Below are positions 43,411 to 62,998 of a DNA stretch of 64,000 nt, piece by piece. Where the stretch lies: NCBI RefSeq assembly GCF_030268965.1, contig NZ_BSSE01000034.1, forward strand, positions 1-64,000, written 5' to 3'. Under the pieces are notes generated by a model, which had not been told where the DNA came from, did not search any database, and saw nothing but the letters and a program-made list of their open reading frames with translations. Source of the DNA: Microtetraspora sp. NBRC 16547 (GTDB lineage Bacteria > Actinomycetota > Actinomycetes > Streptosporangiales > Streptosporangiaceae). Position 1 is the stretch's first letter. Each line of letters opens with the position of its first letter. The position numbers and the translations under genes were made by a program.

Positions 43411-44364
43411 TCACCGAACCAGGAGGATTTTGCCGATGTGCTCCCCTGATTCCAGCATCCGGTGCGCCTCGGCGGCCTCACGCATCGGCACGCTGGCGTA
43501 GATCACCGGCTTGATCGCGCCCGCGCTGATCAGAGGCCAGACGTCGTTGACGACTCCCCTGCAGATGGCGCCCTTCTCGTCCACCGGCCGGGCGCGCAGG
43601 CCCGCCGCCGAGATCGACGCTCGCTTGGCCAGGAGCTTGCCGAGATCCAGCTCGCCGATCCTTCCGCCCTGCATTCCGATCACCACGAGGCGGCCGCCGA
43701 CCGCCAGGGCGTCCAGGTTCTTCTTCAGGTACGCCGCGCCGACGATGTCAAGGATCACGTCGGCCTTCTTGACCGAGAAATCCTCCTCGCGGTAGTTCAG
43801 GGCCTCGTCGGCGCCGAGCTCCAGGCACTGCCGTACCTTCTCGGCCGAGCCCGCCGTCGCGATCACGCGGGAGCCGTATGCCTTGGCGAGCTGGATGGCC
43901 AGGGTGCCGATGCCGCTCGTGCCTCCGTGGACCAGCAGGGTCTCGCCCTTGCGGAGGCGGGCGCCCATGAAGACGTTCGACCAGACCGTGCAGGCGACCT
44001 CCGGCAGCCCGGCCGCCTCCAGCGGTGACACCCCCACCGGGACGGGCATGACCTGCTGCCACGGAACGGCCACGCGCTCCGCGTACCCTCCGCCGACGAG
44101 GAGTGCGCAGACCCGGTCCCCCGGCTGGAAGCCCTCCACGTCGGCACCGACCTCGATCACCGTTCCGGAGCACTCCAGGCCGGGAATCTCCGAGGCGCCT
44201 TTCGGCGGGGGATAGAAGCCCTGGCGCTGGAGGACGTCCGCGCGGTTGACGGCGGAAGCGGCCACGTCGATGACCACATCGCCTCGCGCGGGCTCCGGAT
44301 CGGGGACTTCCTGCCAGTCCAAAACCTCCGGACCACCGGGCTCCGTAATTACGATCGCGCGCAT
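43411..44364 (-). CDS. NAD(P)H:quinone oxidoreductase (zinc-free MDR family)
   Basis: Medium-chain dehydrogenase/reductase of 317 aa. The N-terminal GroES-like domain shows ASAVNRADVLQRQGFYPPP and GLECSGTV; the catalytic zinc cysteine is lacking. A Rossmann domain has LLVHGGTSGIGTLAIQLAKA, where AxxGxxG binds NADPH. The close match to PIG3/quinone oxidoreductase sequences (QGFYPPPKGASEIPGLE) suggests reduction of quinones to protect against redox cycling. ATG at 44364. It is divergent from the MinD-like gene with a 113-nt gap. Confidence 0.9.
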   Translation of the reverse strand: MRAIVITEPGGPEVLDWQEVPDPEPARGDVVIDVAASAVNRADVLQRQGFYPPPKGASEIPGLECSGTVIEVGADVEGFQPGDRVCALLVGGGYAERVAVPWQQVMPVPVGVSPLEAAGLPEVACTVWSNVFMGARLRKGETLLVHGGTSGIGTLAIQLAKAYGSRVIATAGSAEKVRQCLELGADEALNYREEDFSVKKADVILDIVGAAYLKKNLDALAVGGRLVVIGMQGGRIGELDLGKLLAKRASISAAGLRARPVDEKGAICRGVVNDVWPLISAGAIKPVIYASVPMREAAEAHRMLESGEHIGKILLVR

Positions 44365-44477
44365 GGGACCAAAGTAGCGGGGCCGCGAACTCGGCGGTTG
44401 CCCGCATTCGCTGCATTAGAGGGCGCTAATCTGCAATGTGTTTGCTGCCCCTTTAGCCCAGCCCGAGGGGGAACACG

Positions 44478-47018
44478 GTGGCAAGGCACGATCGTGAGGA
44501 TCCCCACTCTCTCGAGGACCAGCTCGCCTGGCTCGACGCGATCAAGGAGATGCCCGACGAGGTGGACATCGCGGTCAGCGCGGTGACCTCGGCATCCCTC
44601 GCGTCGTCTCCGGTCACGGAGCCCGAGGTGCCTTCGCCGTACCCTCAGGACCCCTGGCGTTCGGTGCCGTCCGAGCCCGCCTCCCAGGCGCTGTTCCGTA
44701 CGGCGGCGGATCCCGCGTACGGCGCCACGGTCGCTGTGACCTCGACGGACACGGCGGCGGACGCCGAGCCTGGAGTCGCCACCGGGCTCGCCGGGTCTTC
44801 CGAGCTCTCTGCGGCCGCCGGGTCTTCTGAGCTCTCCGGGGCCGCCGGGCCTGCTGGGCTTTCGGGATCCGGTGGTGCTTCGGGACTTTCCGGGCTTTCT
44901 GGGTCTTCGGGGCTTTCCGGTGACGGCGCGCAGCCCGGCTTCCCCGGTACGCCTCCGGCAAGCCTGGGGCGGGGCCCGCTGTTCCAGGAGTCCCCCGTCG
45001 ACACCGATCCCTTCAACGTGGGGGTGCTCGGGGAGGGGGCTCCGTACAAGGAGCACCACACGCAGCCGGTCCGGTTCTCGACAGGGGAACACAGCATCGA
45101 GGATCTCCGATCCGAAGAAGGCGGATCCGAGGAACATGCTCTGGGCGGCCCGACCCCGTCCTGGCCGGAGGTGCCCAAGGCCGAAGAGCCGGTCCGCGGG
45201 TGGCTTGAGCCGGCGGTGCCGGTCGAGACGGACGGCTCCTCCGCGTTCTCGGGTTCCAGGTCCTCTGGCCCCGCTTCCCCTGATGTGGGATCCTCCAGCT
45301 CTGCTTCCTCTGGTCTGGAATCCTCTGGCTCCCTGTCATCCGGTCCTGGATCCTCAGGCTCGGCGTCCCCTGGCTCTGGGTTCTCCGGGGCGGGGTCTTC
45401 CGGCTTCGGGACCGCTGATTCCGGGGACTCCGGCTCTGACGTCAGGCAGCCCTTCTCCGGCGGCCTGATCGGCGCGGTGACCGAGCGTTTCACCGGCCCC
45501 CTCCCGGAGGAGGTGCCGGCCGAGGAGCTCAAGCCGTACGAGGGGGATCAGCCGTTCGCGGGTTCTCTGCGCGAGGATCTGGCACCGGGGCAAGGGTTCG
45601 GGGCCTTTTCGGGCGAGGAGCCCGGCGGGCAGCCTTTCGGTGGCATCTCGGGCGGGGACGCGTCGTCCGGCACGCCGTTCGGCGGATCGTTGCGCGAGGA
45701 CCTGGCACCTGGACAGTTCTTCGGCGGCTCGCCGCGTGAGGACCTGACGCCCGGTCAGGGGTTCGGTGCCCCGTCGCGTGAGGGGTCCCCCGCTCAGCCG
45801 TTCGGGGGCTCCCTGCGGGACGACCTGGCGCCGGCTCAGTCATTCGGCACCGGCCCGAACGCGAACCCCCTGCCTGACCAGCGGTTCGACGGGGCTTCGC
45901 GAGAGGAGCCCCCGGTGGCCGACACCTCCCCCGAGGGGCAGGCGCCGGAGGAGCGTGAGCCTTACCAGCCCCGGCGCAGGCAGGCTCCGCAGGTCACCAC
46001 GTTCGGCGCTCCGGGGCGTGCGAGCAGGGCGACGGCCGGAAGCAAGCCGTCCGTGGACAGCCTCGACCCGGGCAGCCTGCTCAAGGGCCGCAGAAACGCG
46101 CCCGCGCGCGGATGGCGCCGGTTCGTCTACAAGGCGTCCGGGGGCTGGATCAAGCCGGGCGAGGCTCCGGACGTCCGGCGGCGGCGCGAGCTGCTCGCCC
46201 GCGCCCGAACCCCCGTCGCTGCCGGGCACCACCGGGTGGCCGTGCTCAGCCTGAAGGGAGGCGTGGGCAAGACCACCACGACCGTCGGTCTCGGGGCCAC
46301 GCTCGCCCAGATCCGCGGTGACCGCGTGATCGCCGTGGACGCCAACCCCGATCGTGGAACGCTCTCGGACAAGGTCGAGCTGGAGACCTCGGCGACCGTG
46401 CGTGACCTCCTCAACGAGCGTGGGCAGATCAAGCGGTACGTCGACATCCGGGCGTTCACGTCCCAGGCGCCGTCGCGGCTGGAGATCCTTGCGTCCGATC
46501 GCGACCCCTCGGTGTCGGAGGCGTTCAGCGCGGGCGACTACCAGGCGGTGGCGCAGGTCCTGGAGAACTTCTACTCGATCTGCATCACCGACTGTGGCAC
46601 GGGCCTGCTCCATTCGGCGATGTCGGGCGTCCTCGACCTGGCGGACCAGCTTGTGCTGGTCAGCTCACCGTCGGTCGACGGCGCGAGGGCGGCCTCAGCC
46701 ACCCTGGACTGGCTGGAGGCGCACAACCACGCGGAACTCGTCAGGGCGGCGACCGTGGTGCTGTGCAGCGTACGGCCGCGGTCGAAGTCGGCCGTCGACC
46801 TCGACCGGCTGGAGTCCCATTTCGCGGCCCGTTGCCGTTCCGTGGTCCGCGTTCCGTACGACCCGCACCTGGAGGAGGGGGCGGAGATCGACCTGGACCG
46901 GCTGCTGGAGCCGACCCGAGAGGCGTACCTCCGGCTCGCCGCCGCGGTGGGCGACGGCTTCGCCGGACCCCAGGCGCTGACGGAGCGCCGGTACTCCGAG
47001 ATCCCCGACCAGATCTGA
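44478..47018 (+). CDS. MinD/ParA-like ATPase with long disordered N-terminus
   Basis: 846 aa. Residues ~1-570 are low-complexity: Ser/Gly-rich runs (SGLSGSSGLSG), then at least four copies of a unit near SLREDLAPGQ-FGG (~355-460). The C-terminal ~270 residues are a deviant-Walker-A ATPase: VAVLSLKGGVGKTTTTVGLG, VIAVDANPDRGTL (switch I region) and CITDCGTGLLHSAM. This type occurs in actinomycetes near type VII secretion or division genes (EspI-like), but no secretion genes are seen here. It may position a protein complex via its disordered arm. GTG at 44478 follows GAGGGGGAA. Confidence 0.82.
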   Translation: MARHDREDPHSLEDQLAWLDAIKEMPDEVDIAVSAVTSASLASSPVTEPEVPSPYPQDPWRSVPSEPASQALFRTAADPAYGATVAVTSTDTAADAEPGVATGLAGSSELSAAAGSSELSGAAGPAGLSGSGGASGLSGLSGSSGLSGDGAQPGFPGTPPASLGRGPLFQESPVDTDPFNVGVLGEGAPYKEHHTQPVRFSTGEHSIEDLRSEEGGSEEHALGGPTPSWPEVPKAEEPVRGWLEPAVPVETDGSSAFSGSRSSGPASPDVGSSSSASSGLESSGSLSSGPGSSGSASPGSGFSGAGSSGFGTADSGDSGSDVRQPFSGGLIGAVTERFTGPLPEEVPAEELKPYEGDQPFAGSLREDLAPGQGFGAFSGEEPGGQPFGGISGGDASSGTPFGGSLREDLAPGQFFGGSPREDLTPGQGFGAPSREGSPAQPFGGSLRDDLAPAQSFGTGPNANPLPDQRFDGASREEPPVADTSPEGQAPEEREPYQPRRRQAPQVTTFGAPGRASRATAGSKPSVDSLDPGSLLKGRRNAPARGWRRFVYKASGGWIKPGEAPDVRRRRELLARARTPVAAGHHRVAVLSLKGGVGKTTTTVGLGATLAQIRGDRVIAVDANPDRGTLSDKVELETSATVRDLLNERGQIKRYVDIRAFTSQAPSRLEILASDRDPSVSEAFSAGDYQAVAQVLENFYSICITDCGTGLLHSAMSGVLDLADQLVLVSSPSVDGARAASATLDWLEAHNHAELVRAATVVLCSVRPRSKSAVDLDRLESHFAARCRSVVRVPYDPHLEEGAEIDLDRLLEPTREAYLRLAAAVGDGFAGPQALTERRYSEIPDQI

Positions 47019-47101
47019 CGCTTGGAGATCATCTTCTGTCGCGGACACCCGGCGCGCGATGAGAGACTATGGTGATGTTCTGTGCCTTGGCGCACCGACC
47101 A

Positions 47102-47189
47102 GGAGAGCTCGCCTAGTGGACGATGGCGGCGGTCTTGAAAACCGCTAGGGGCTTGACGCTCCTCGTGGGTTCGAATCCCACGCTCTCCG
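47102..47189 (+). tRNA. tRNA-Ser (anticodon TGA)
   Basis: 88-nt class II tRNA. Acceptor stem GGAGAGC/GCTCTCC, discriminator G. The anticodon stem CGGTC/GACCG-like region encloses loop CTTGAAA, anticodon TGA. Long variable arm (TAGGGGCTTGACGCTCCTC) and T-arm GTGGGTTCGAATCCCAC. CCA is not encoded. Its 3' 54 nt are repeated at 49997. Confidence 0.96.
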
Positions 47190-47330
47190 CTCCCACCTCC
47201 GAAAACGGCGTCTGACCAGCGGTTTCGCTACGGTCAGACGCCGTTTATCGTTCCCCGCCATGTGCAGCCCTACGCCACCCTGAGCCACCCTCGGCCGCTG
47301 TTCCCGGGATATATCCGGGATCGATCTTGA
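47136..47330 (+). repeat. Direct repeat copy A (tRNA-Ser 3' half plus flank); attL-like
   Basis: From the anticodon loop (TGAAAACCGC) through the tRNA 3' end, the terminator and on to GATCTTGA at about 47330, this ~195-bp block is repeated with scattered changes at 49997-50189. The tRNA part is identical in both copies. Confidence 0.9.
47203..47246 (+). terminator. tRNA-Ser terminator hairpin
   Basis: AAACGGCGTCTGACC pairs perfectly with GGTCAGACGCCGTTT, 13 nt after the tRNA. The equivalent hairpin in copy B (50064-50107) carries small changes. Confidence 0.85.
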
Positions 47331-47516
47331 GGTGTAGCCGCATGCGCAGAATTTGTCCCAGGGGACCGCTCACCCAGGACGCCACACTGGCAGCCGCACC
47401 GCAAGATCGTGACGTCCACGTGTCAAGAATGCTCTCCGTCAAGCTTGACATGAGATCACCTTGCGTGGCTTGATCGTATGAATTCTCGCACTGGTGAACG
47501 AATATTGGAGGCCATC

Positions 47517-49508
47517 ATGCTGTTAGCGCGACGCCCTGACCGCGCTCCGTCATCGCCTGCACCTGCGGTCTTCCGATTAGCCCGCCGGCTGCTCACCCTC
47601 AGCACCGTTCCGATCATGGTAGCGGGCCTGGTCGTGACCCAGGCGCCCGCCGCCACCGCGGCCGACTCCAAGACAGACCTCGGCGTGTCCCTTCCTTTCT
47701 ACAGGCGAGGCGGTGATGTGGCCGCGGGCCACGACAAGATCTTCGTCTCTGCCGGCGACCGTGTCATCGTCGCCGACACCCAGGGCTCCATCACCGACAC
47801 CATCACGGGCCTCCCGGGCGTGACGGAGCTCGCCCTGGCGGCCGATGGCTCCCGCCTTTACGCGGCGGTTGAGGGTTCGAACCAGGTGGCCGAGATCAGC
47901 ACCGATTCCCTCGCCATCACCCGGCGGATCGACCTGACCGCGTATCCGTGCCCGTCGACCCTGTCCCTGTCGGGCAGCCGGCTCTACGTCGGTTACGGTT
48001 GCAGCACCCACGCGAGCGGCGCCGTCAGCCTCGACGTGTCGGCGGCGGAGCCGGAGTACACCCAGATCGTGACAGGGCTGCACAGCCCTCCCCTGGTGGC
48101 CGCTGCGGGGCGGACTCTGGTGGTTGGCGACACCAACCTCACGTACGGCAACCTCAACATCTACGACGTGTCGGGCGCCACCGTCAACCTCCGCGCGGTC
48201 GTCATCGGCTCCACCTACCGACTGGCCAATCTGCAGGACCTCGCCCTCACCGCGGACGGCGCCACCTTGTTCACCGCCTTCGGCTTCCCGTACCAATTCG
48301 ATAGCTGGGACACGGCCACAGCGGCCCATGTCCGCAGCTACGGCGCGCAGTCGTATTCTCATGCCGTCGCGATCAGCCCGGACGGTGCCCATGTGGTGGG
48401 CGGAAGGTCACGCGGTACGCCCGTCGCAATGTTCGACGTGGCCACGGGGGAAGAGACGTTCGCCTACCGGAACCCGGCCGACGAGGTGCTCCCGGGAGGC
48501 CTCGCCATCTCTGGTACCACCGTCTTCGCCGTGCTGAGAGACTTGTCAGACCGGCTCCACCTGGCGCGGCTGCCCGATGTCACGCTCGCCGCGTCCTCGC
48601 TCAGCCTGACAGCTCCGTCCACGTCGACAGTGCTCGACCCGCTCACACTGACCGGCCGCCTCACCTTGTCGGACGGCTCGGCCCCTGGCGTGCAACCCCT
48701 GGCGGTCACCCGTCAACGGTCCGACGGCACCGTGGTGTCCCTCCCCAGGGTGACCACCGCCGAGGATGGCACGTTCACCATCACCGACGCCCCGCAGGTC
48801 GTCGAGGCGCTCAGGTACGACGTCACCTGGGACGGCAATTCGTCCTTCCGGTGGAGCAGAGCCTGGGCGTGGACCACGGTGGTCAAGCGCAAGTCCTCGC
48901 TCACCGTGACGCCTCCGTCCACGGCGACCGCGCTCGACCCGCTCACACTGACCGGCCGCCTCACCCTGTCGGGCGGATCGGCCCCCAGCACGCAACGCCT
49001 GGCGGTATCCCGCATCCTTCCTGGCGGCACCGAAACGCCCTTCACAGAGGTGACGACCGCCGAGGACGGCACATTCACCGTCACCGACACCTCGCCGGTG
49101 GGTGGGATTGTCTACTACAAGGTGCGCTGGGGCGGGAACTCCATCTACGAGCCGAGCCAGGACGGGAGTAACCTGCTGGTGGCCAAACGCCAGACGACCC
49201 TCACCGTGTCGGGACCCGAGAAAGCGGTCGCCAACAAGCAACTCGAGTTCAGCGGTGAACTGGACGGCGGTGGCCAGCTTCCTTCACCGAACGCCGTACT
49301 TACTGTGCACCGCACCGTTGTCAACCACAAGGGCACCATCACGAGCCTGCTGCGGAATGTGACGGCCTCCGATGACGGGTCGTTCAGCTTCACCGATACG
49401 CCCAGCGGGGGCGGCGAATACACGTACAGCGTCAAGTGGGCCGGCGACAAAACGTATTCGGCCGTGGAGGGCGCCCACGTAGTCACGGTTCGAGGGCAGC
49501 TCGGCTAA
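47517..49508 (+). CDS. Secreted beta-propeller protein with Ig-like repeats
   Basis: About 663 aa. A long Arg-containing N-terminus plus hydrophobic segment (LSTVPIMVAGLVVTQAP...) ending at TAADS resembles a signal peptide. Residues ~60-365 form YncE/surface-layer-like propeller blades (VTELALAADGSRLYAAVEGS, AISPDGAHVVGG). Three ~95-residue Ig-like repeats follow, each with LTLTGRLTLS(G/D)GSAP and TTAEDGTFT(I/V)TD. A cell-surface or matrix role is likely. ATG at 47517 has GGAGG 5 nt upstream, better than ATG at 47478. It is the only gene between the two tRNA-Ser repeat copies, so it is probable cargo. Confidence 0.75.
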   Translation: MLLARRPDRAPSSPAPAVFRLARRLLTLSTVPIMVAGLVVTQAPAATAADSKTDLGVSLPFYRRGGDVAAGHDKIFVSAGDRVIVADTQGSITDTITGLPGVTELALAADGSRLYAAVEGSNQVAEISTDSLAITRRIDLTAYPCPSTLSLSGSRLYVGYGCSTHASGAVSLDVSAAEPEYTQIVTGLHSPPLVAAAGRTLVVGDTNLTYGNLNIYDVSGATVNLRAVVIGSTYRLANLQDLALTADGATLFTAFGFPYQFDSWDTATAAHVRSYGAQSYSHAVAISPDGAHVVGGRSRGTPVAMFDVATGEETFAYRNPADEVLPGGLAISGTTVFAVLRDLSDRLHLARLPDVTLAASSLSLTAPSTSTVLDPLTLTGRLTLSDGSAPGVQPLAVTRQRSDGTVVSLPRVTTAEDGTFTITDAPQVVEALRYDVTWDGNSSFRWSRAWAWTTVVKRKSSLTVTPPSTATALDPLTLTGRLTLSGGSAPSTQRLAVSRILPGGTETPFTEVTTAEDGTFTVTDTSPVGGIVYYKVRWGGNSIYEPSQDGSNLLVAKRQTTLTVSGPEKAVANKQLEFSGELDGGGQLPSPNAVLTVHRTVVNHKGTITSLLRNVTASDDGSFSFTDTPSGGGEYTYSVKWAGDKTYSAVEGAHVVTVRGQLG

Positions 49509-49996
49509 GCAACGGAGCCGCTCAGCCGAGAAGCGCCGGTGACCCGGGTGGCTGCCTCGCCGCCCGGGTCGCCTGTCGCTCCGGGGTCTTCGCCCGCTAC
49601 CGTCACCCGAGTTCATCCATAGGGCAGGGGAACGGCCTGCTCGTCGCAGCCCGCGTTACGCCCCGTCCCATAGCCCGGCGTCAAGTATGGACGCGCCCGG
49701 AACGGGCCAGACGACCGTGAACAGCGTCCACCCAGGGTTCCACGGGGCGTCTCAACTGCTCGGTCAGGGGCGTGTGGCCGGTGGCGCATATGCGGTGGCG
49801 CGACGTCCTGTCACTTGCAACAAGCCCTGCAGCACAACACCGAGCATCATGCCGAGGCCCTTCCACCCACGGGTGATCGCTAGCTTAGAGCTTCCTCGAT
49901 TCGACGATTGGCGCGGGATGATCTTCGCTGGCCAGCCGCCTTCGCATGACTAAGCCGCAGGTCAGGACCGGTACGGGCGGAGGAGCCGTAGTGCTC
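49509..49996. other. Non-coding stretch up to repeat copy B
   Basis: No gene with recognisable protein features on either strand. A weak hairpin (CAGCTCGGCT ... AGCCGAG) just past the propeller gene may be its terminator. Confidence 0.4.
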
Positions 49997-50189
49997 TGAA
50001 AACCGCTAGGGGCTTGACGCTCCTCGTGGGTTCGAATCCCACGCTCTCCGCGCCCACCTCCGAAAACGGCGTCTGACCAGCGGTTTCGCTACGGTCGGAC
50101 GCCGTTGATCGTTTCCGCCGTGTCCAGCCATACGCCACCCTGAGCAGCCCTCAGCTGCTGTCCACGTTATATTCACAGGATGATCTTGA
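49997..50189 (+). repeat. Direct repeat copy B; tRNA-Ser 3' fragment, attR-like
   Basis: Begins TGAAAACCGC and contains the 3' 54 nt of tRNA-Ser unchanged, then ~140 bp of similar flank, including a degenerate copy of the terminator. The 5' half of a tRNA is absent, so no functional tRNA is encoded. This is the configuration left when an element integrates at the anticodon loop/3' end of a tRNA gene. Confidence 0.9.
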
Positions 50190-50509
50190 CGCGATCTGCC
50201 CAGGTCAGGCATTCGTTGATCAAGGTGAGCGCTTGTTGAACGAGTCCGCCAGTGGCGCTGCGTGCATACCAAACGAATCCCGCTCGGAAGAGCTGTGCGG
50301 CGCCAGTTCGGGTGAAAACACCGCTAGGAATAGGCCGGTCTGGAAAGTGTGTCTAATGAGACTGCAGCTCTAGGCGGTATCGCCAGCATTCGCCTCGTCC
50401 GCCCCCTTCTGGGTGTTGGCGGGTGACGGAGCGTGCTCGCGAGGTAGCGTGCGAAGTGCCCTCTCCGCCAACGTATCTTCTCCCTGCTCAACTAGGCGCC
50501 CAGGGGTTA

Positions 50510-50740
50510 TCAAGAGAGGCGGGCCAGGCCGCTGTCGGGGCAGATGTTGCGGGGCTGACGACCTTGCCGGGGCCAGGACGCCGGTGGGTAATGAAGACCG
50601 GGCCGCGGGTGCGGCCTTTGAGCAGGCGAGGGAGCAGCTGGGCGGTGTCGGCGTCCCAGTAGACGGTCTCCAGCACGAAGTCCTCCCGCGCCTGGCCGCG
50701 GCGGCGGATCTTGGCGCGCGCTCTTGGCCTTCACCCGAGC
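50510..50740 (-). pseudogene. Tyrosine recombinase (integrase) fragment with frameshift
   Basis: Minus-strand translation gives [36 protein letters not shown] and [18 protein letters not shown], then only after a frame change [13 protein letters not shown] followed by a stop. This order matches the middle of actinomycete XerC-like integrases (xTAxLLPRLxxGRxxGPVFLTxRR ... xxPxTGRARLSYxRA). The catalytic Arg-His-Arg-Tyr region is missing, and an in-frame stop lies upstream. It is a decayed piece of an integrative-element recombinase. Confidence 0.7.
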
Positions 50741-50829
50741 CTGCCGGGCGGTCGGCAGCGTCCCGTGAACTCGTTTCCTGATTCGTGTGAAAGACGGGCG
50801 ACACTACTTCCTTTGGAAGGCCCGACCAC

Positions 50830-51408
50830 ATGCCCCTCAGTACGACCCTGTCTGACGCCGCCCTGATCGAACGGTCGTGGCGAGATCCCGAGGATTTCGC
50901 CTTGCTGTTCGACAGGCACGCAAGACACATCCACCGTTATGTGGCCCGCCGGCTCGGCGACGACACGGTCGACGACGTCGTCTCCGAGACGTTCCTCGCC
51001 GCGTTCAGGCAGCGCCGCGACTACGACACCGCCCGCCCGGAGGCCCTCCCCTGGTTGTACGGCATCACGACCAACTTCATCCGCCGGCATCAACGCGCCG
51101 AGCTACACCGCTATAAGGCGTACTCGAAAATGGGCGTGCTTCCCGACGCCGACGACGCCGCGGAACAAGCTCTTGAGCGGGCGAGCGCGCATGCCGTACG
51201 CCGCCCTCTCGCCCGGGCGCTCGCCTCACTGAAGGCCCGCGACCGCGACGTCCTCTTACTCGTGGCCTGGGCCGACCTCACCTACGAGGAGGTCGCCGAC
51301 GCCCTGTCCATCCCGATCGGAACAGTCCGTTCCCGCCTCAACCGCGCGCGGGCCATCGTCCGCAACGCCCTCGGCAGCACCGACCCCACGATGGAGCAGG
51401 CCTCATGA
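50830..51408 (+). CDS. ECF-type RNA polymerase sigma factor
   Basis: 192 aa with sigma region 2 (~20-90; LFDRHARHIHRYVARRLGD, VVSETFLAAFRQR, PWLYGITTNFIRRHQR) and region 4 (~125-180; LKARDRDVLLLVAWADLTYE, IPIGTVRSRLNRARAIV). It directs polymerase to a small regulon, usually held by a membrane regulator; the downstream gene overlaps it by 4 nt (ATGA) and has one membrane helix. GGAAGG lies 9 nt before the ATG. Located between the integrase fragment and the IS701 remnant. Confidence 0.92.
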   Translation: MPLSTTLSDAALIERSWRDPEDFALLFDRHARHIHRYVARRLGDDTVDDVVSETFLAAFRQRRDYDTARPEALPWLYGITTNFIRRHQRAELHRYKAYSKMGVLPDADDAAEQALERASAHAVRRPLARALASLKARDRDVLLLVAWADLTYEEVADALSIPIGTVRSRLNRARAIVRNALGSTDPTMEQAS

Positions 51409-52361
51409 ACGAACTGACCGACCTGACCGAACTCCGCGACCTGTTCGCCGACAAGCCGCACCCCACGGCGGACCGCCTCGCCCCCGCCCGTACCGCCCTG
51501 CTGGCCGAAGCCCGCACGAAGCGCCGGCCCCGGGCCCGGGTGGCCGGCCTGCGGCGCCTGATGCTGGCAGGCGGCCTGGTCGCGGCGATGACCGCAGGAG
51601 TGATCGCCGTCCAGACGTTCAAGCCTGCCGCGCCCGCGAGCGCCGCCGAGGTGCTGAGGCTGGCGGCCGAGGCCGCGAGCGCCACCCCGTGGCCGGAACC
51701 CCGCGACGACCAGTACCTCCACTACGAGCAGATCGCGGAGTCGCGCCCCGAGAAGGGGGTTCCCGATCCCGGTCCGCGCCGCATCACGGGCGAGTTCTGG
51801 GATTCCGTCGACGGCTCCCGCCCAAGACTCAGCTGGGGCAAGCCGTCGAAGTCCCGCCCCCATCGCGGCCGCGGCGAGTACAAGGAACTCGGGCCCTGGT
51901 GTCCCGGCCACGGCCGCCCCACCTACGCCGACCTGCGTGGGTGGCCGACCGACCAGGAGCAGCTCCGGCACAAACTGGCCGAATACGGCAAGGAGATGGT
52001 CCTCAAAAAGGACACCGCGACCCAGATCTGGCGCGCCCTCGGCGTCCTCGCCCACCCGATGCCACCCAAGCTGCAGGCGGCCATCTTCAAGATCGCCGCG
52101 ACCCTGCCGGGCATCGAAACGGAAGAGCTCAAGGACGCCACCGGCAAAACGGGCATCGCCGTGACCCGGGTGGACAACCTGGGCCCCGGGGGCGCCATCT
52201 CCCGCGAATCCTTCATCTTCGACAAGACCTCCTACGTCTTCCTGGGCGGCCAGGAGCTCGTGCCGGGACAAGGGCGTGAAGTCTGGTCCGTCACCCGTCC
52301 GCAGATCACCGATGAACTTCCGGCCTGGTCCAAGTCCGTGAAGCGGAGAGGCTGCGTCTGA
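51405..52361 (+). CDS. CU044_5270-type membrane protein, probable ECF partner
   Basis: 318 aa. A short acidic N-terminus (NELTDLTELRDLFADKPHPT), basic linker and one membrane helix (~48-68) precede an outer domain starting APASAAEVLRLAAEAA and containing LHYEQIAESRP and WPTDQEQLRHKL. Proteins of this layout (CU044_5270 family) are routinely encoded behind ECF sigma genes in Streptosporangiales and their relatives and are presumed anti-sigma factors or sensors. Overlap with the sigma gene supports co-translation. Confidence 0.82.
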   Translation: MNELTDLTELRDLFADKPHPTADRLAPARTALLAEARTKRRPRARVAGLRRLMLAGGLVAAMTAGVIAVQTFKPAAPASAAEVLRLAAEAASATPWPEPRDDQYLHYEQIAESRPEKGVPDPGPRRITGEFWDSVDGSRPRLSWGKPSKSRPHRGRGEYKELGPWCPGHGRPTYADLRGWPTDQEQLRHKLAEYGKEMVLKKDTATQIWRALGVLAHPMPPKLQAAIFKIAATLPGIETEELKDATGKTGIAVTRVDNLGPGGAISRESFIFDKTSYVFLGGQELVPGQGREVWSVTRPQITDELPAWSKSVKRRGCV

Positions 52362-52436
52362 GCCTGCTTCCCCCCCGGACGACAGGCGGGCCGCGCCGGC
52401 CGGGCTCGCCTTACCGGCTGTCCCACTACGGGGGGC

Positions 52437-52622
52437 GAACGTCATTCCTAAGGTCGCCGGGCTGCTGGCGCGGGCACAGGCCGAAGAGCGAGCCGGGCGC
52501 ACGACGCGGGCGCGGCGGCTGCGCGCCCAGGCGGCGCGGGTGTGGGAGGCGGTGTGGGCTGGCAACCGGGCGATGCTGGCCTACTACGGGTGCCACACTG
52601 ATACGGCAGTTGTAGATCGTTA
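52437..52622 (+). pseudogene. Unidentified Ala/Arg-rich ORF fragment
   Basis: An open frame from 52437 reads VAGLLARAQAEERAGR, then RARRLRAQAARVWEAVW and AYYGCHTDTAVVDR-stop. It has helical, amphipathic character and no start codon with a ribosome-binding site. It may be the 3' remnant of a plasmid- or phage-type gene cut by the neighbouring IS; identity unknown. Confidence 0.3.
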
Positions 52623-52638
52623 GGCGCTGCAATATGGG

Positions 52639-53658
52639 TCACGTGGCAGAAGCAGCTGTTACCTCGTTCCACCGCCGATGGCAGGCGGCTGCCCGAGCTT
52701 GATGGCGCCGCCGCCACAGCGACCAGCGCAGGGCATGTCCGGGATCGACGTCTTGCCGGGGACATGGAAGCACGAACAGGCGGAGAAGTTTCACCAGCTC
52801 ACGGCAGCTCACGGGAACGAACTCACCGTCTTGGGTGCCCGTGCTGCCGCCACGTTCCAGGCTGGTCGTGGTGGCCAGCAGCGCGTAGGCGATCATGCTG
52901 ATCAGGCTCCACCGGTGCCAGGAGGTCCAGCTGGTGACCTGTCCCTGGTCCAACCCGGCCAGGCCCTTGGCGGCTTGGAACTCTTCTTCGATCCGCCATC
53001 TGCGGCACACCACGCTCACCAGCTCCCGCAGCGGGCGGGGCGTGGGTGACCAGCAGCGGTAAAAGGACAGGGTGCGGGTGTAGCGGTGACGGCGGACCAG
53101 GAGCGTGCTGTGCCCGTCCGGCTGTCCGCCGGGGATGTCGTCGGCGAGCACGTCGATCATTGCCCAGTCGTAGTGGCGGTCGCCTTTGGTGCCGCTGCCG
53201 GTCCGCAACCGCTGCCAGGACCGGGCGGGCAGGCGTTTGACCAGATCGGTGACGGTGAAGGTGCCGGCCGGGGTGGTCACCCGATGGTCGCTTTTGACGG
53301 CGACCGCATACCGGTAGCCCAGGCCGCGGACCGCGGTGCGAGTTTCCCTGCCGCCATACACCTCATCGGCGGCGACCCAGGCATCGGTGACGCCGCGCTC
53401 GCGCAGGCGGGCTTCCGCGTCGCGGTCGAGGACACCCCCACGCTCGTTGCGCTCACCGCCGAGTACGAGGAGACTGGATGCTGGATCCGGACGATTGCCC
53501 GCAAGCACGTAGCGGATTTCTCTCAGGTCGGGGGCCGTCAGCCGCCGACAGATGAGCGACTCGCTCAGCGGGCCGGAAATCGCTGGACTTACTGGGCTGC
53601 TCTTTATGTATAACCGCTTCATCGCCGACCTCGCGATCGCAACCGTACGGCTTGGCAA
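52639..53658 (-). pseudogene. IS701-family transposase, N-terminally truncated/frameshifted
   Basis: From about 53430 leftward the frame matches IS701 DDE transposases: RGVTDAWVAADEVYGG with the second catalytic Asp, KGDRHYDWAMIDV, LLVRRHRYTRTLSFYRCWSP, RRWRIEEEFQAAKGLAGLDQ with the catalytic Glu, SWTSWHRWSLISMIAYALL and LRWSLWRRRHQARA. The first ~100 residues of the open frame do not match, and the normal N-terminal ~150 residues with the first catalytic Asp are missing. No terminal inverted repeats were found. Probably a dead IS. Confidence 0.78.
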
Positions 53659-53745
53659 GCGTTTGACGGAGCTTCATCAGCTATAGGGAATACATTCTCG
53701 GTCACATGATGGCGATCGCTGAGCGGGGAAACGAAGGAAAGCATC

Positions 53746-54153
53746 ATGGCCATCTACACCTGCACAGCCCATGAAGCGGCGCTGTCTTCTGAACAGCGTA
53801 CGGTTATCGCCGCGGAGATCACCCGTATCCACTGCGCGCATACCGGTGATCGCCCCAACATGGTTTGGGTGATCTTCGAGACCCTGCCTCCCGACAGCAT
53901 CTTTTCAGGCGGGAAGCCTGCGGAAAACACCGTCATAGTGGGTCTCTTTCGGGAGCGCAGTGCGGAAGTCAAAGCTCAGGTGCTGAACGAAATTTGTACG
54001 ATGTACAAGAAAGTCACTGGTCTGTCCGATGACCAGCTTTGGGTATCGTTGACGGAAATCTCTTCGAGCGACGCAATGATGTTTGGCGCGCTCCTCCCTG
54101 AGGTGGGCCACGAAGACGAATGGCTGGCTAAGCTCGGTCTTCTCGATAAATAG
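53746..54153 (+). CDS. Tautomerase-superfamily protein lacking Pro1
   Basis: 135 aa resembling cis-CaaD-like or oxalocrotonate-type tautomerases with two fused beta-alpha-beta units. It starts MAIYTCTAHEAALSSEQRTV where relatives begin MPIYTC; codon two is GCC, so the catalytic N-terminal proline is Ala. EITRIHCAHTGDRPNMVWVIF and LWVSLTEISSSDAMMFG are otherwise well conserved. GAAGGAAAG lies 5 nt before the ATG, so the start is firm. Third codon positions are visibly richer in A and T than in neighbouring genes, suggesting transfer. Activity, if any, must be non-canonical. Confidence 0.85.
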   Translation: MAIYTCTAHEAALSSEQRTVIAAEITRIHCAHTGDRPNMVWVIFETLPPDSIFSGGKPAENTVIVGLFRERSAEVKAQVLNEICTMYKKVTGLSDDQLWVSLTEISSSDAMMFGALLPEVGHEDEWLAKLGLLDK

Positions 54154-54486
54154 CAGGGGCAGCGCGGACCGTCTTGGAGCGCCCCTCCATGCTGTTCGGG
54201 TGGTCGTTCAGGTGAAGGCAGGAGCGAACGGCCAGCCAGCGAATAGGGTTTCCAGGGCACCGGTTCCCGCCTGTAACGCCCGCCGCAGACCCTCCACGAA
54301 TGCGCGGACGGCCTGGCCGATCTGATCAGGGACGCTCTATGGTCGTCTGCCGCACCGGCTGATGCCGATGGGGGCGCCGTACACCGATGCTCGAGGGCGG
54401 GAGCTTCCCGCCTCGCCGGGCTGGGCCGCGGAGGAGCATCGGCCACGCTCAGTACATACAGCAAAGCGCAGAGTTACGATCTCTCT
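54154..54486. other. Intergenic stretch with no clear gene
   Basis: A short minus-strand frame (ALQAGTGALETLFAGWPF...) has no usable start and is preceded by a stop; it could be a gene remnant. Upstream of the next gene, TACGAT (54475-54480) sits 6 nt before its GTG, a good -10 hexamer for a leaderless transcript. Confidence 0.4.
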
Positions 54487-55875
54487 GTGGCAGGCGAGAG
54501 CTATGACGTGATTGTGATCGGGACCAGCCAGGGCGGCCGGTTCCTCCCCCTCGATCTGGCGAAGGCAGGCAAGAAGGTGGCGCTCATCGAGCGCGACCAC
54601 CTAGGCGGCGTCTGCGTGAACACCGGGTGCACCCCGACCAAGACGATGGTCGCCAGCGCGCGCATCGCCTATCAGGCGCGGCGCGGGGCGGAGTACGGCG
54701 TGCGGACCGGTCCGGTGTCGGTCGACCTCGCCGCCGTGCGGGAGCGCAAGCGGGGGATGGTCGCGGGCGCGCGGGAGAACTACGCGAGCCGCCTGGCGCA
54801 GGACGGGATCGACCTGATCGAAGGCGAGGCCCATTTCACGGGGCCCAAGACGGTCGAGGTCGCCCTGAGGGACGGCGGGACGCGGGGGATCAGCGCACCG
54901 GTGATCGTCATCGACACGGGCAATAGGCCCAAGCCGCTGACGATCAGCGGTGCGCAGAACGTCCCCGTCCTCGACTCAACGTCGATCATGGAGCTGGGCG
55001 TGCTCCCTGAGCACCTGATCATCCTCGGCGGGGGCTACATCGGGCTGGAGTTCGGGCAGATGTTCCGCAGGTTCGGCAGCGAGGTCACGATCGTCCAGAC
55101 CGGCCCACGCCTGATGATGATCGAGGACGATGACGTCTCCGACGAGGTCGCTGCCATCTTGCGCGATGACGGGATCACGGTCCTGACTTCGGCGACGACG
55201 GACCGGGTCGAGGAGGCAGGCGGCGGACGGGTGCGGCTGACCGTTCGCACGCCGGACGGCGAGCGGCAGGTCGAGGGCTCCCACCTGCTGTCGGCCATCG
55301 GCCGCATCCCCAACACGGAGGGGCTCACGCTGGCGGCGGCCGGCATCCGGCTGCGCGACAACGGCTTCATCGAGGTCGATGAGTACCTGGAAACCTCCGT
55401 CCCCGGCGTCTACGCCGTAGGGGACGTCAAGGGCGGCCCGGCCTTCACCCACCTTTCTTACGACGATTACCGGATCCTGCACGCCAACTTGCTCGGCCGC
55501 GAGAAGGCGAGCACGCGGGGCAGGGTCGTCCCCTACACCGTGTTCATCGACCCGCAACTCGGCCGCGTCGGCATGACCGAGCGGCAGGCCAGGGAGCAAA
55601 ACCGCGCGGTCCGCGTCGCGAAGCTGCCGATGAGCGCCGTCATCCGGGCCCTTGAGACCGGCGAGACGCGCGGCTTCATGAAGGCCGTCATCGACGCGCA
55701 CACCCAGCAGATCCTCGGCGCCGCCGTGCTCGGCGCAGAAGGCGGCGAGATCATGTCGATCATTCAGGTCGCCATGCTGGGCAAGCTCCCGTACACCGCC
55801 ATGGCGAACGCCATCTTCACGCACCCGTTGCTGGCGGAGGGCCTTAACAGCCTCTTCATGACGCTCGACGCCTGA
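54487..55875 (+). CDS. FAD-dependent pyridine nucleotide-disulfide oxidoreductase (MerA/Lpd-like)
   Basis: 462 aa, class I flavin disulfide reductase. FAD-binding start DVIVIGTSQGGRFLPLDLAK, redox-active disulfide GGVCVNTGCTPTK (Cys43, Cys48), NAD(P)H site LIILGGGYIGLEFGQMFRRFG and FAD-contact YAVGDVKGGPAFTH. At the C-terminus IFTHPLLAEGLN keeps the second His and Glu of the active-site dyad but not the first His, as in MerA-like rather than true lipoamide dehydrogenases. No HMA domain or MerA C-terminal cysteine pair is present, so the substrate is open. GTG start appears leaderless behind TACGAT. Confidence 0.88.
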   Translation: MAGESYDVIVIGTSQGGRFLPLDLAKAGKKVALIERDHLGGVCVNTGCTPTKTMVASARIAYQARRGAEYGVRTGPVSVDLAAVRERKRGMVAGARENYASRLAQDGIDLIEGEAHFTGPKTVEVALRDGGTRGISAPVIVIDTGNRPKPLTISGAQNVPVLDSTSIMELGVLPEHLIILGGGYIGLEFGQMFRRFGSEVTIVQTGPRLMMIEDDDVSDEVAAILRDDGITVLTSATTDRVEEAGGGRVRLTVRTPDGERQVEGSHLLSAIGRIPNTEGLTLAAAGIRLRDNGFIEVDEYLETSVPGVYAVGDVKGGPAFTHLSYDDYRILHANLLGREKASTRGRVVPYTVFIDPQLGRVGMTERQAREQNRAVRVAKLPMSAVIRALETGETRGFMKAVIDAHTQQILGAAVLGAEGGEIMSIIQVAMLGKLPYTAMANAIFTHPLLAEGLNSLFMTLDA

Positions 55876-56489
55876 GCGTGTCCGAGCGATCACGTGACCG
55901 CCCCGCGTCCAGGTCGTTCTTGTGGGCATGGGGCGGGCTGATCTAACAGCCCCGCGCAGAAGCCGGGACAGCCCCAGGGCAGCGGTCCGTACCGCTGGCA
56001 CCAGTCGGGCAGGGCGGAAGCGCGACCGGGGGACCACACGGGATCAGGTCATCACTGCCGGCGGGGTGCTGATCAGCGGCATCGCCGTGTTGACCGGCGC
56101 GATCGGTCGCTCCATTCCGCGCTGCGTGCCACGAGCGTCCACAGGGTGACGGGCGTCCACAGGGTGACGAGCGAACCAGTCTGCCTTGTCGCCGCTGTCA
56201 CTTGGTCACCGAACCACCGTGATGACACTGCCCGTGCCGGGGTAGCTTGGGGTTGTGGCCACCGGTGAAGACTAGGCCCACGTTGGTCCAGGGTCTGTTG
56301 CGGACCGGAGCTGACCCGGGAACGCCGGCATCGACCGGAGGGGCGAGGGCCAAGGCGTGATCACGCCGCCGACAGGCCGACGCCGCCGGATACTTGGCTG
56401 GTCAACGTCAAAGAGAGATTCATCGTCAACTCTGACCACAAGTTGCGACAGGACAGGACGGTCCTCGAGCCTTGAGGGGGTTCGTGGCG
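55876..56489. other. Intergenic stretch; no convincing gene
   Basis: ORFs here are short and unlike any family. An 18-nt unit (GCGTCCACAGGGTGACG) is duplicated in tandem near 56135-56170. The remainder shows no RNA motif that I recognise. Confidence 0.4.
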
Positions 56490-57365
56490 ATGTTCGATCG
56501 ATTCGAAGAGTTCGACATCTCTACCGCGGGTGCGTCGATCCATGGACGCCGAGGCGGCAACGGACCGCCTCTGCTGCTCCTGCACGGTATTCCGGAAACG
56601 CATCTGATGTGGCATCGGGTAGCACCCCGCCTTGCCGAGCGCTACACCGTCGTCGCCACCGATTTGCGTGGGTACGGCGACAGCGGCAAGCCGCCCAGTA
56701 CCGCCGATCACGAGCCCTACAGCATGCGCGCGATCGGTCGTGACCAGCTCGGGGTCATGCGACATCTGGGCTACGACCAGTTCAGCATCGTGGGACACGA
56801 TCGCGGGGCGCGCTGCGCCTACCGTCTCGCACTGGATCACCCGGATGCTGTTCTCCGGCTCGCCGTCATGGACGTCGTTCCCGTCGGCGACGCGTACAAC
56901 CGTGCCGACAAAAACTTCAGCCTCCTCTACTGGCAATGGTCCTTCCTCGCCGCGCCAGAACCGACACCGGAACAGTTCATCAACGCGGCACCGGCCAACC
57001 TGGTCGACTTCATGCTCAACACGTGGTCCGAGGTGAAGGACGCTTTCCCAACCGAGGTACGCGGCGAGTACATCGAGAAATTCACCCACCCCGATACGGT
57101 GCACGCCATCTGCGAGGAGTTCCGCGCATCCCCAACCTTGAACTACCAGCAGGACGAGGCGGATCGCGGGAACCGGAAGATCTCCTGCCCAGTGCTCTTC
57201 CTCTGGAGCCAACGCGGTTCGGTCGCGAAACTTTACGATGATCCGCTCGCGATATGGCAGGAGTGGGCCGATGACGTTCGCGGCGGCCCGGTGCCAGTCG
57301 GTCACTTCATTCCAGAAGAGGCACCCGAGGAGACCACACGCCAACTGCTGAATTTTCTGCAGTAG
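56490..57365 (+). CDS. Haloacetate-dehalogenase-like alpha/beta hydrolase with altered halide pocket
   Basis: About 291 aa. HGIPETHLMWHRVAP oxyanion region, nucleophile Asp in IVGHDRGARCAYRLA, acid Asp in AVMDVVP, and His in PVGHFIPEE. The whole order DRGAR...MDVVP...NRADK...YWQW follows fluoroacetate dehalogenases. Those use a His-Trp-Tyr halide pocket; here the His is Gln (YWQWSFL) and the Tyr (usual DYRA) is Phe (EEFRAS), while Trp is kept. Dehalogenation, especially defluorination, is therefore doubtful. ATG at 56490 has AGGGGG 9 nt upstream; earlier in-frame codons sit closer to or overlap it. Confidence 0.82.
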   Translation: MFDRFEEFDISTAGASIHGRRGGNGPPLLLLHGIPETHLMWHRVAPRLAERYTVVATDLRGYGDSGKPPSTADHEPYSMRAIGRDQLGVMRHLGYDQFSIVGHDRGARCAYRLALDHPDAVLRLAVMDVVPVGDAYNRADKNFSLLYWQWSFLAAPEPTPEQFINAAPANLVDFMLNTWSEVKDAFPTEVRGEYIEKFTHPDTVHAICEEFRASPTLNYQQDEADRGNRKISCPVLFLWSQRGSVAKLYDDPLAIWQEWADDVRGGPVPVGHFIPEEAPEETTRQLLNFLQ

Positions 57366-57422
57366 CGCGGGATCGGCGCGACTGCTCGACGTGCCGGGGA
57401 TTTATCGTCCATCCGCAATTTG

Positions 57423-57587
57423 GTGGCGCCGTCACGCTCATGCTCCAAGGTGCATGCCACTGTGGCCGCGGAGAACACGGCCTCACTGGCCCTGCTGGAG
57501 CGGGTCGGTTTCGAGCACGTCCGGGACATCGTCGAGGACGACGGTGGCATCACCCGCGTGTTGACCCGTCGTTCAGTTGGACGGTGA
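57423..57587 (+). pseudogene. GNAT acetyltransferase C-terminal remnant
   Basis: The frame gives HATVAAENTASLALLERVGF followed by EHVRDIVEDDGGITRVL and a stop. ENxxSLxLLERxGF is the C-terminal acetyl-CoA-site region of RimJ/RimL-type GNAT enzymes. Only about 45 residues of homology survive and no upstream N-terminal part is present. Confidence 0.65.
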
Positions 57588-57647
57588 CCGCCGAGCCTTC
57601 GCCTGGGGCGGTCAGGCGGGGCGAGCACGCGCAGCACGAATGCCGCA

Positions 57648-58913
57648 TCATTTCAGCGCGTCGAGGCCCGCGTAGGCGCGGCAGTCCGCGTGTGTGCTCG
57701 GCAGGTTCCAGGTCCGCAGGATCTCCATGAAATTGTCCCAGCGCCACGTCTCGGGACCCAGCTCGGCCAGGACGCGTACGACCCGCTGCTGCGGCTTGGT
57801 CAGCTCCTCGAACGGCAGCAGCTGACGAGGCGCGGCTTCCTCGAACGTCAGCCGCAGCGCCGCCGTGGCCATCGAAAAGACCGCGATCTCCGAGCTACGC
57901 GACAGGCCCTCCAGGACGGCGTCGACAGACTCCGCCGGCAACCGGACGTCCAGCGCGGCCAGTGTCTGCGACGCGTAGGCGCGCCCATCGCCCTCCATGA
58001 AATGCACCCCGGGCACCACGTCCGCTTTCGGCGGGTCGACGCTGGCCGACGCCAGCGCGCCGATGATTTCGCGGTTGAGGACGCCGAGCCGGGCGAGGGC
58101 CACTGCTGCGGCCCAGCGCAGCAGCGGCTCGGGACCGCCGAGGTGCTCGCGCAGCCGCGGAATCAGCTCCACGTCCGACAGCAGCCCGGCGGAGATGATC
58201 GCGTTGGCGAGGACGCCGGTGACGGTCTCGGATCCGGGCAGGGGCCGGAGCGCGAGGACGGAATCGGCCGCTTCCTCCGGGAACCAGCCCAGCAGGTACG
58301 CCGTGGCGGACCGGATCTCCGGATCGTCGTCACCCAGCAGCCGGCGAAGGCCGGGCACCTCGGCCCGGACCGCGTCGTAGACGCCCAGCTCGTCTTGCGC
58401 GCATCGGAGCGATTCGGCGTGGTCGTAGCAGTCCCGCCGCCAGCTCCGGGCCCGCCGTTCGCCCTCGTCCTGGGCCGCCTCGACCCACTCGTCGATCTTG
58501 CGCAGCTCCTCCGCCGGGTCGGCGGCGCGCATCCGCCCGACCTCGGCCCGCCAGCCCGCGATGTCGACGCCGCGCGGCAGGTGCGCCTCGTCGTATCCGA
58601 TCGCCACCGAGGCGAGCAGGTGCACGATCTCCTGCCGATCGGGTGTCGCCGCATCGACGGCGAGCTGGGCCAGGAACGGCACGGCATATGCGGTCGCCTG
58701 GTATCGGCTGCCCTGGTGGAAGATGTTGCCGTACAGCTCGCACACGGCGCGCTCGCGCTCGTCGTGAGACTCGGAGCGCAGCGCCCTCAGCAGTCCCGGA
58801 ACGTCGTCCGCGGGGCCGTAGGCGTGACTCAGCGCCGCCCAGTCGATCTCGTCCAGGCCCGCCAGGACATCGCGATCACCCATGGCGTGCAGTGTGCCAG
58901 CCACCACCGACAT
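57648..58913 (-). CDS. HEAT-repeat protein
   Basis: 421 aa, nearly all helical. Repeating blocks such as VPGLRRLLGDDDPEIRSATAYLLGWFPEEA and LIPRLREHLGGPEPLLRWAAAVALARLGVL are HEAT/PBS-lyase-like repeats. The N-terminal LDEIDWAALSHAYGPADDVP is shared by many actinomycete proteins of unknown role, often near immunity or polymorphic-toxin genes. No signal peptide. ATG at 58913 is preceded immediately by GAGGG, closer than ideal; ATG at 58883 lacks any site. It likely acts as a protein-binding scaffold. Confidence 0.75.
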   Translation of the reverse strand: MSVVAGTLHAMGDRDVLAGLDEIDWAALSHAYGPADDVPGLLRALRSESHDERERAVCELYGNIFHQGSRYQATAYAVPFLAQLAVDAATPDRQEIVHLLASVAIGYDEAHLPRGVDIAGWRAEVGRMRAADPAEELRKIDEWVEAAQDEGERRARSWRRDCYDHAESLRCAQDELGVYDAVRAEVPGLRRLLGDDDPEIRSATAYLLGWFPEEAADSVLALRPLPGSETVTGVLANAIISAGLLSDVELIPRLREHLGGPEPLLRWAAAVALARLGVLNREIIGALASASVDPPKADVVPGVHFMEGDGRAYASQTLAALDVRLPAESVDAVLEGLSRSSEIAVFSMATAALRLTFEEAAPRQLLPFEELTKPQQRVVRVLAELGPETWRWDNFMEILRTWNLPSTHADCRAYAGLDALK

Positions 58914-58938
58914 CCCCTCACCGCGGGAATTCTCCTGC

Positions 58939-59331
58939 TCAGGCCGGGCCGAGCAGGTCCCAGCGGTTTCCGGCGATGTCGAGGAACACGGCGACCTGCC
59001 CGTACGGCTCGTTGCGCGGCGAGGTCACGAACTCGACGCCCGCGGCGACCATCCGCCGGTAGGCGGCGTCGAAGTCGTCCACCCGGAGGAAGAACCCCAC
59101 CCTGCCGGCCACCTGGTTCCCGACGGCCTTGGCTTGCCGCTCTCCGTCGGCGCGGGCGAGCAGGATGCCGGTTTCCGCGCCCGGCGGGCGGACGATGACC
59201 CACCGTTTCGGACGGCCGTCGTTCGTCAAGGAGGGCGAGTCCTCCACCAGATCGAAGCCGAGGGCGCCGACGAAGAACTCGATGGCTTCGTCGTAGTCGT
59301 CCACGACGATCGCGAATAATTCGATCTTCAC
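58939..59331 (-). CDS. VOC/glyoxalase-fold protein
   Basis: 130 aa, a single vicinal-oxygen-chelate module. It opens KIELFAIVVDDYDEAIEFFVGALGFDLVED and ends VAVFLDIAGNRWDLLGPA, with AYRRMVAAGVEFVTSPRNEPYGQVAVF typical of glyoxalase-like family members. Function could be metal-dependent lyase/dioxygenase or antibiotic binding; no partner suggests which. Its stop is 26 nt upstream of the HEAT gene start, so the two are probably co-transcribed. Confidence 0.85.
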   Translation of the reverse strand: MKIELFAIVVDDYDEAIEFFVGALGFDLVEDSPSLTNDGRPKRWVIVRPPGAETGILLARADGERQAKAVGNQVAGRVGFFLRVDDFDAAYRRMVAAGVEFVTSPRNEPYGQVAVFLDIAGNRWDLLGPA

Positions 59332-59445
59332 TGTCTGATCGTACGGGCGCGCGTCCGGAGCGGAAGGTCAGGCCGCCTCGCGGGAGCCAATGGCCTCACC
59401 GGCCAACACAGAGACCCGGCCACGCGGGGGCGAGTTTCCGCCTGG

Positions 59446-59907
59446 TCAGCTCCCGCAGTGCCCCCACGGGATGCTGGCGTAGTAGCTGGTGCTGGACGTG
59501 GTGGAGAAGGTGTGACCGAGCACCTGGACGCACTTGCCTGCCGCCTTAACGCGTACTGGCCCCGCGTAGTACTTGTAGTTACGGTCGTCCTCGTGGCGAG
59601 TGAAATTGTTGCCGGAGGTCTGGACGAGGATGGTTGCCCCTGTGTCCGTGGCGGTCCCAACAGCCACACTCTTGATCGTGACTGCGCAGTTGTAGCCTGT
59701 GGAGTTGTTGTAGAGCAAGTAAACGCGGCCGCCAGTGTTGGAGAGGCTCTGGTGCTTCAACGGCAGTGAGTCAATGACGTGGTAGCCAGAGCCGCAGATC
59801 TCCTCCGGGGTGTAAGCGGCAGCCATGGCGGGGGTTGCCAAGATGCCCATGGCACTACCTGCAACCATTACAGCGGCAATCTTGGCGGCAGCGGAGCGCA
59901 CTCGCAT
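59446..59907 (-). CDS. Spore-associated protein A-like secreted protein
   Basis: 153 aa. A signal peptide (MRVRSAAAKIAAVMVAGSAM...ATPAMA) precedes a small cysteine-containing domain: EEICGSGYHVIDSLPL, GGRVYLLYNNSTGYNCAVTI, YYAGPVRVKAAGKCVQVLG and a final WGHCGS. This pattern of ICGSGY, VYLxYN, NCxVT and AGPVxVxxxGxCV matches Streptomyces spore-associated protein A. It is likely exported and associated with aerial hyphae or spores. The ATG at 59907 has AGGAAG about 12 nt upstream; longer in-frame starts add non-signal sequence. Confidence 0.8.
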   Translation of the reverse strand: MRVRSAAAKIAAVMVAGSAMGILATPAMAAAYTPEEICGSGYHVIDSLPLKHQSLSNTGGRVYLLYNNSTGYNCAVTIKSVAVGTATDTGATILVQTSGNNFTRHEDDRNYKYYAGPVRVKAAGKCVQVLGHTFSTTSSTSYYASIPWGHCGS

Positions 59908-60971: not shown

Positions 60972-60989
60972 GTCAGTTCTCCTTAGGGG

Positions 60990-62727: not shown

Positions 62728-62755
62728 CCCCGCCGACCATGAGGCCGGCGGGGCC
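62728..62755 (-). terminator. Terminator of the small Arg-rich gene
   Basis: GCCCCGCCG and CGGCGGGGC form a 9-bp perfect stem with a 10-nt loop, 9 nt past the stop codon at 62764. Confidence 0.75.
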
Positions 62756-62763
62756 GCGTATCG

Positions 62764-62949: not shown

Positions 62950-62998
62950 GGGTGCCCTCGCTTATCGCACTGGCGCCTTTTCAGCGTCAGGGCTGGGC

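Follow-up and report, generated by a model that had tools for sequence, protein, structure and literature searches.

A repeated tRNA-Ser(UGA) 3' half in Microtetraspora as the very probable scar of two stacked pSAM2-like integrations

The repeat pair behind the tRNA-Ser(UGA) gene of Microtetraspora sp. NBRC 16547 very probably results from the integration of pSAM2-like AICEs into that gene, at least twice, with subsequent decay of both elements. This reading rests on the sequences of the repeat itself, of both attachment arms, and of intact relatives and uninserted sister genomes, together with the independent origins of the two flanks. The younger element has been reduced to a single propeller gene between two recognisable attachment sites, and behind it lies a second, older element.

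The window, the whole stretch of 64,000 nucleotides that was analysed, fills contig C34 of the source genome (64,019 bp). The features around the integration site are the following.

44478..47018 (+): ParA/MinD-like ATPase gene (PF01656, PF13614), conserved chromosomal neighbour 5' of the tRNA
47102-47190 (+): tRNA-Ser(TGA), the integration target (ARAGORN, Rfam RF00005)
47136..47190 (+): attachment repeat copy 1, from the anticodon loop to the tRNA 3' end, with an identical 55 nt at 49997
47191..47335 (+): flank N1, read as the P' (integrase-side) attachment arm of the younger element from its arm motif, its position in intact elements and its absence in uninserted sisters
47200..47250 (+): strong hairpin directly 3' of the tRNA, a probable terminator, within the attachment arm
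47478..49508 (+): gene for a predicted secreted beta-propeller protein of 676 aa whose C-terminus has Ig/filamin-like repeats
49872..49996 (+): P arm of the younger element, on its far side, with GGGATGATCTT at 49915-49925, CAGGTCAG near 49957 and a core half-site before 49997
49997..50051 (+): attachment repeat copy 2, read as a displaced tRNA-Ser 3' half, its core with a 1-nt deletion
50052..50206 (+): flank N2, read as the P' arm of the older element, its arm motif lying at about 50165-50187
50061..50111 (+): the terminator-like hairpin again, in the 97% repeat of 47136-47255, with a hairpin arm at 50065

The 55-nt 3' half of the tRNA occurs exactly twice, at 47136 and 49997, in direct orientation and with a start-to-start distance of 2861 bp. 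Similarity continues past the tRNA: 47136-47255 is repeated at 97% in 49997-50116, the following 67 bp match at 78%, and blastn aligns the 195-bp block 47136-47330 with 49997-50189 at 89%. The repeated half and the similar flank had both been reported in an earlier note on this DNA, and both are borne out. A search of the source genome for the 195-bp block, which that note had proposed, returned only these two strong copies, the third listed match being the hairpin against itself; the two copies are not a chance match. The Rfam scan gave nothing but the tRNA. In alignment, the core that reads CTCTTGAAAACC in other elements reads CTCTGAAAACC in the window, and because the distal copy has lost one core T, the repeat starts at TGAAAACC. 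Nearly all of the family loci that were examined have the ParA/MinD-like gene 5' of the tRNA. The protein it encodes has a long low-complexity N-terminal region of degenerate FGGSLREDLAPGQ-like repeats (window 45551-45911) that are not conserved in relatives, and an ATPase domain that is.

The flank beyond the tRNA is made up of a hairpin and about 100 bp that end in the direct repeat CGCGGRATATAYGCGGRATGATCTT and GTTTCCCCAGGT, located at about 47303-47328 in N1; the repeats within the arms are GCGGRATATAYGCGG. The hairpin at 47200..47250 has a minimum free energy of -35.6 kcal/mol versus -16.1 in shuffles (z -7.2) and would probably serve as a terminator. In intact elements the flank block sits between the integrase and the tRNA. 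It was present 3' of the tRNA in 34 of 57 sampled loci, a sample enriched for matches, and an integrase of at least 80% identity adjoined 14 of these 34 tRNAs as against none of the 23 without the flank (p = 0.0003, kinship ignored). Genomes without an insert, which the earlier note had suggested comparing, were found among close sisters. The uninserted G067 and the inserted G139 match to the tRNA end and then again, at 97.6%, from 112 bp versus 256 bp onward, with the flank contained in the longer spacer; G025 (uninserted) and G126 (inserted) likewise differ, by about 2 kb. In G139 (L053, 3409-3665) a scar of about 250 bp consists of the tRNA and an attachment arm with no other element DNA, followed by the uninserted chromosome, apparently a final stage of decay.

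The arm motif is not confined to this tRNA. It also lies between integrase and tRNA at tRNA-Arg(CCT), tRNA-Tyr and tRNA-Met sites in Micromonospora, Catellatospora, Nonomuraea and Streptosporangium, beside integrases that are 52-69% identical, and agrees at 18-24 of 25 positions in most cases versus shuffle maxima of 17-19; more distant integrases (41-54%) mostly lack it. The source genome itself holds three related AICE integrases (L209-L211, at G000:C12:132112-133470, G000:C3:34110-35195 and G000:C8:177455-178315). One lies by tRNA-Tyr and one by tRNA-Met, and the third is truncated, with the same arm motif about 1.4 kb off and no tRNA called nearby.

Because the flank is associated with the integrase, differs between sisters and carries a motif that recurs at other tRNAs, it belongs to the element, and these comparisons identify it as the P' arm of the attachment site, travelling with the integrase. 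It is very unlikely that the flank is instead an ordinary conserved region of the chromosome, merely copied into the attachment sites of elements, even though it stands behind tRNA-Ser(TGA) in most sampled loci, several of them with no recognisable integrase. We had initially favoured such a native flank, on the ground that the same gene follows it in single-copy genomes and behind distal copies, and dropped the idea when it was ruled out by integrase remnants behind those copies and by the arm motif beside integrases at other tRNAs. The flank is moreover missing in sisters whose chromosome resumes directly after the tRNA, it would have been gained or lost at least 12 times on the tree of the neighbouring ParA gene, and its motif accompanies related integrases in other families.

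The tree of flank copies groups N1 with copies of G001, G002 and G041 (support 98/91), and N2 with other copies of G041 plus those of G003, G126 and G144 (support 95/91); by these sequences, N1 and N2 are of separate origin. Two tandem copies in direct orientation could also come from a local segmental duplication that copied the tRNA 3' end together with its flank, the propeller gene having entered afterwards. Such a duplication has almost no probability left, since N1 and N2 fall in different clades that are common to other genomes, and the break lies exactly at the recombinase core, with an element arm left of the second copy. As a P' arm follows 49997 as well, that position begins a second, older element, and what had been a hint of repeated integration thus becomes two stacked insertions.

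In other elements, the P arm left of the displaced tRNA half has GCGGGATATNYGCGGGATGATCTT 70-90 bp before the core, followed by a CAGGTCAG-like stretch and GTAGTGCTCTTGAAAA; the window has GCGCGGGATGATCTT at 49911, GCCGCAGGTCAG at 49954 and CCGTAGTGCTCTGAAAACC at 49986. Against 13 other P arms, the window's P arm reached a mean Smith-Waterman score of 32.2 versus a shuffle maximum of 17.2, and other island windows scored about 15-17. It keeps one clear half of the arm motif only, and because half of the P-arm repeat has decayed, its alignment with the window's N1 scores 19, below the 25 that shuffles can reach.

The following sequence of events would account for these observations. A tyrosine integrase, known from relatives and with no counterpart in the window, would cross over in the anticodon loop. 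As the incoming element brings its own tRNA 3' half, terminator hairpin and P' arm, element DNA would restore the tRNA, and the earlier 3' half would be displaced to the far end, behind the P arm. The older element (49997 to about 57418) would have integrated first and the younger (47136-49996) then in front of it, so that copy 1 of the repeat (47136..47190) would have arrived with the younger element. Both would later have lost their integrase, replication and transfer genes, the younger persisting as a CIME-like relic of 2.86 kb.

The element type is assigned from relatives and from the attachment arms, because the window holds no integrase, Rep or Tra. No match to a site-specific integrase was found in 44000-64000, one being present at the same site in relatives; the window proteins that were scanned included no replication initiator (RepSA, RepAM or Prim-Pol), and neither window proteins nor gaps contained an FtsK/SpoIIIE-type Tra; and blastx against the relatives' genes found no integrase, Rep or Tra remnants in the non-coding gaps of the window. 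What the window does have is the attachment-site repeat at the tRNA 3' end with element arms. Integration and transfer genes are gone and both attachment sites are kept, as P' arm plus core at 47136-47335 and as P arm plus core at 49872-50051, the latter with the 1-nt core deletion. The scar therefore adds a new case to a known kind of structure: it is a CIME-like AICE relic that arose by tandem accretion.

The propeller gene is the sole long open reading frame between the repeat copies, which agrees with the earlier description of one secreted propeller gene and no integrase; 47136-49996 is an element reduced to this gene. Its product has weak similarity to beta-propellers (the WD40 domain of PkwA and a surface-layer propeller), and its filamin-like C-terminus falls just under the Pfam cut-off. 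Homologues are patchy, occurring in 48 of 201 family genomes. Island-free relatives with both repeat copies and the propeller gene in place, named beforehand as counterevidence, were looked for, and three congeners proved to have no propeller homologue. Transfer of the propeller gene and the arms as one unit was considered and rejected, because the 20-kb stretches examined around the homologues in G141, G200 and G157 (54-68%) contain no repeat, integrase or tRNA.

Relatives show what the complete elements look like. The tRNA was found in almost all of 299 family genomes, and its upstream genes, quinone oxidoreductase-like and ParA-like, are constant almost everywhere; downstream content varies from genome to genome. 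At least 27 of the 299 have an extra copy that starts from the anticodon loop, at least 17 of them on the tRNA's own contig at about 3-25 kb from it, counts that are lower bounds with two candidates scored per genome. The element of G170 encodes proteins with Phage_integrase, RepSA (pSAM2 initiator) and FtsK/SpoIIIE matches, and that of the congener G002 an integrase and RepSA; the RepSA matches have E values of 1e-104 and 1e-164. The end of the integrase gene lies 214-227 bp from the tRNA in six genomes. Since many relatives show this geometry, complete elements occur at this tRNA and a P arm stands left of the distal copy, the proposed scar of integration into a tRNA gene is upheld. The plasmid collection yielded only integrases of less than 60% identity and no circular form of the younger element.

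Small integrase-free units occupy the same site elsewhere (3.4 kb in G142, 3.0 kb in G114), and they lend some plausibility to the idea that the 2.86-kb unit is a compact live element moved by the integrase of another AICE, as do the recognisable attachment sites and arms and the related integrases in the source genome. We nevertheless regard this as improbable: the deletion in the distal core falls in the crossover region, the resident integrases are 59-69% identical with the two placeable ones beside other tRNAs, and none of the propeller homologues, within their 20-kb stretches, shows this cargo flanked by these arms. Because the distal core has lost one base, the younger element is probably immobile. 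Of the three options first put forward for the segment (a decayed element, an island cut down to cargo, or a product of tandem integration), a decayed element cut to its cargo, in tandem with another, fits best.

A second family of tyrosine integrase (460 aa) is found at the same tRNA-Ser within the first 2 kb after it, in L061 (G073) and L064 (G061); the flank it brings is unrelated, and the two families thus use a single target. Its presence there means that another tRNA-targeting integrase, or a prophage, could in principle have made the scar. This is extremely unlikely, as the G073 and G061 insertions have a different tRNA-adjacent flank and different arms left of the distal core, and the window matches the arms of RepSA-type AICEs.

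The pSAM2-like older element, which we place from 49997 to about 57418, comprises the following features.

50207..57418 (+): body of the older element, now lacking an integrase
50830..51408 (+): ECF-type sigma factor (PF08281, PF04542)
51405..52361 (+): CU044_5270 family protein (NF038083)
52639..53658 (-): DDE transposase of an insertion sequence (PF01609)
53746..54153 (+): tautomerase (PF14832)
54487..55875 (+): pyridine nucleotide-disulphide oxidoreductase (PF07992), 97% identical to a protein in G158
56472..57365 (+): alpha/beta hydrolase (PF00561), 98% identical to a protein in G158
57419..57585 (+): right border; island homology stops at 57418 and the chromosome is back at 57448

The native downstream genes of the genus, found after the distal flank in three congeners, are absent at this site. 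The stretch 54437-57418 matches, at 95-98% identity, the cargo carried by a Streptosporangium element at this tRNA, a module recently exchanged between genera. The counterpart of its oxidoreductase and alpha/beta hydrolase genes lies at 10610-13949 of L046 (G158), a locus oriented by the tRNA, and both occurrences are in islands behind tRNA-Ser(TGA). From 57448 the chromosome matches G001 at 94%, inside an acetyltransferase gene that has no start, its first two thirds being lost. On its right the older element lacks an attachment site and meets a deletion junction in a chromosomal gene, and for this reason its extent is inferred. About 5.6 kb of G001 is absent at the junction (57419-57585). 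Further on, a 50-bp stretch of the window (63842-63891) is 90-94% identical to DNA in three congeners (L039, L041 and L043), where the counterpart lies close to the end of the gene that is second after the distal flank.

The tRNA itself may bear traces of these exchanges. Across the family its variable arm comes in at least 14 versions, and identical versions turn up in distant genera; the loci of these alleles include L059 (G218), L064 (G061) and L061 (G073). On the ParA tree, 14 variable-arm alleles require 18 changes. In 13 of the 15 genomes with a clear pair, the allele of the rebuilt half is identical or almost identical to that of the displaced half; the two halves differ in G061 (L064) and G218 (L059). 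Because the halves differ in these two genomes and alleles recur in distant genera, it is possible, at somewhat less than an even chance, that mobile elements have repeatedly replaced the 3' half and terminator of tRNA-Ser(UGA) in much of the Streptosporangiaceae, and that alleles have spread by integration and not by descent only.

The relatives at tRNA-Ser resemble the pSAM2-type AICEs described by Ghinet et al. (2011, PMC3218068) in their tyrosine integrase, RepSA and FtsK-like Tra, in the use of a tRNA 3' end as target and in an integrase that adjoins the attachment site. They differ in that the target is tRNA-Ser(UGA), in Streptosporangiaceae, and the copy in the window in that it consists of attachment sites and cargo only; we found no mention of tRNA-Ser or Streptosporangium in PMC3218068. 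That work reports three direct repeats extending beyond the tRNA-Arg gene at the element Fean6303, and tandem AICEs that excise singly and together. Decay to a CIME (cis-mobilizable element), followed by accretion at the same site, is a known process (review PMC5704250). The present relic shares with it the loss of integration and transfer genes, the two retained attachment sites and a second element in tandem, but its distal core has a 1-nt deletion and its tandem neighbour is decayed as well. Dehalococcoides likewise has islands stacked behind ssrA, an RNA gene whose 3' end is repeated at the boundary of each island, and some of these islands lack an integration module (PMC3146451). The recombinase there is a serine recombinase and the repeat 20 bp, whereas here the recombinase family is tyrosine and the repeat of about 195 bp includes a terminator and an arm. 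As far as the literature surveyed goes, the tRNA-Ser(UGA) element group in Streptosporangiaceae is new, as are the arm motif of this group and the interpretation of the long repeat as an arm with a terminator.

A long repeat that runs past a tRNA can thus be read as two stacked integrations even where no integrase remains, and the arm motif makes such integrase-free scars recognisable from sequence. For the Streptosporangiaceae, a family rich in antibiotic producers, it follows that one tRNA is an integration hot spot at which intact, decayed and uninserted states stand side by side.
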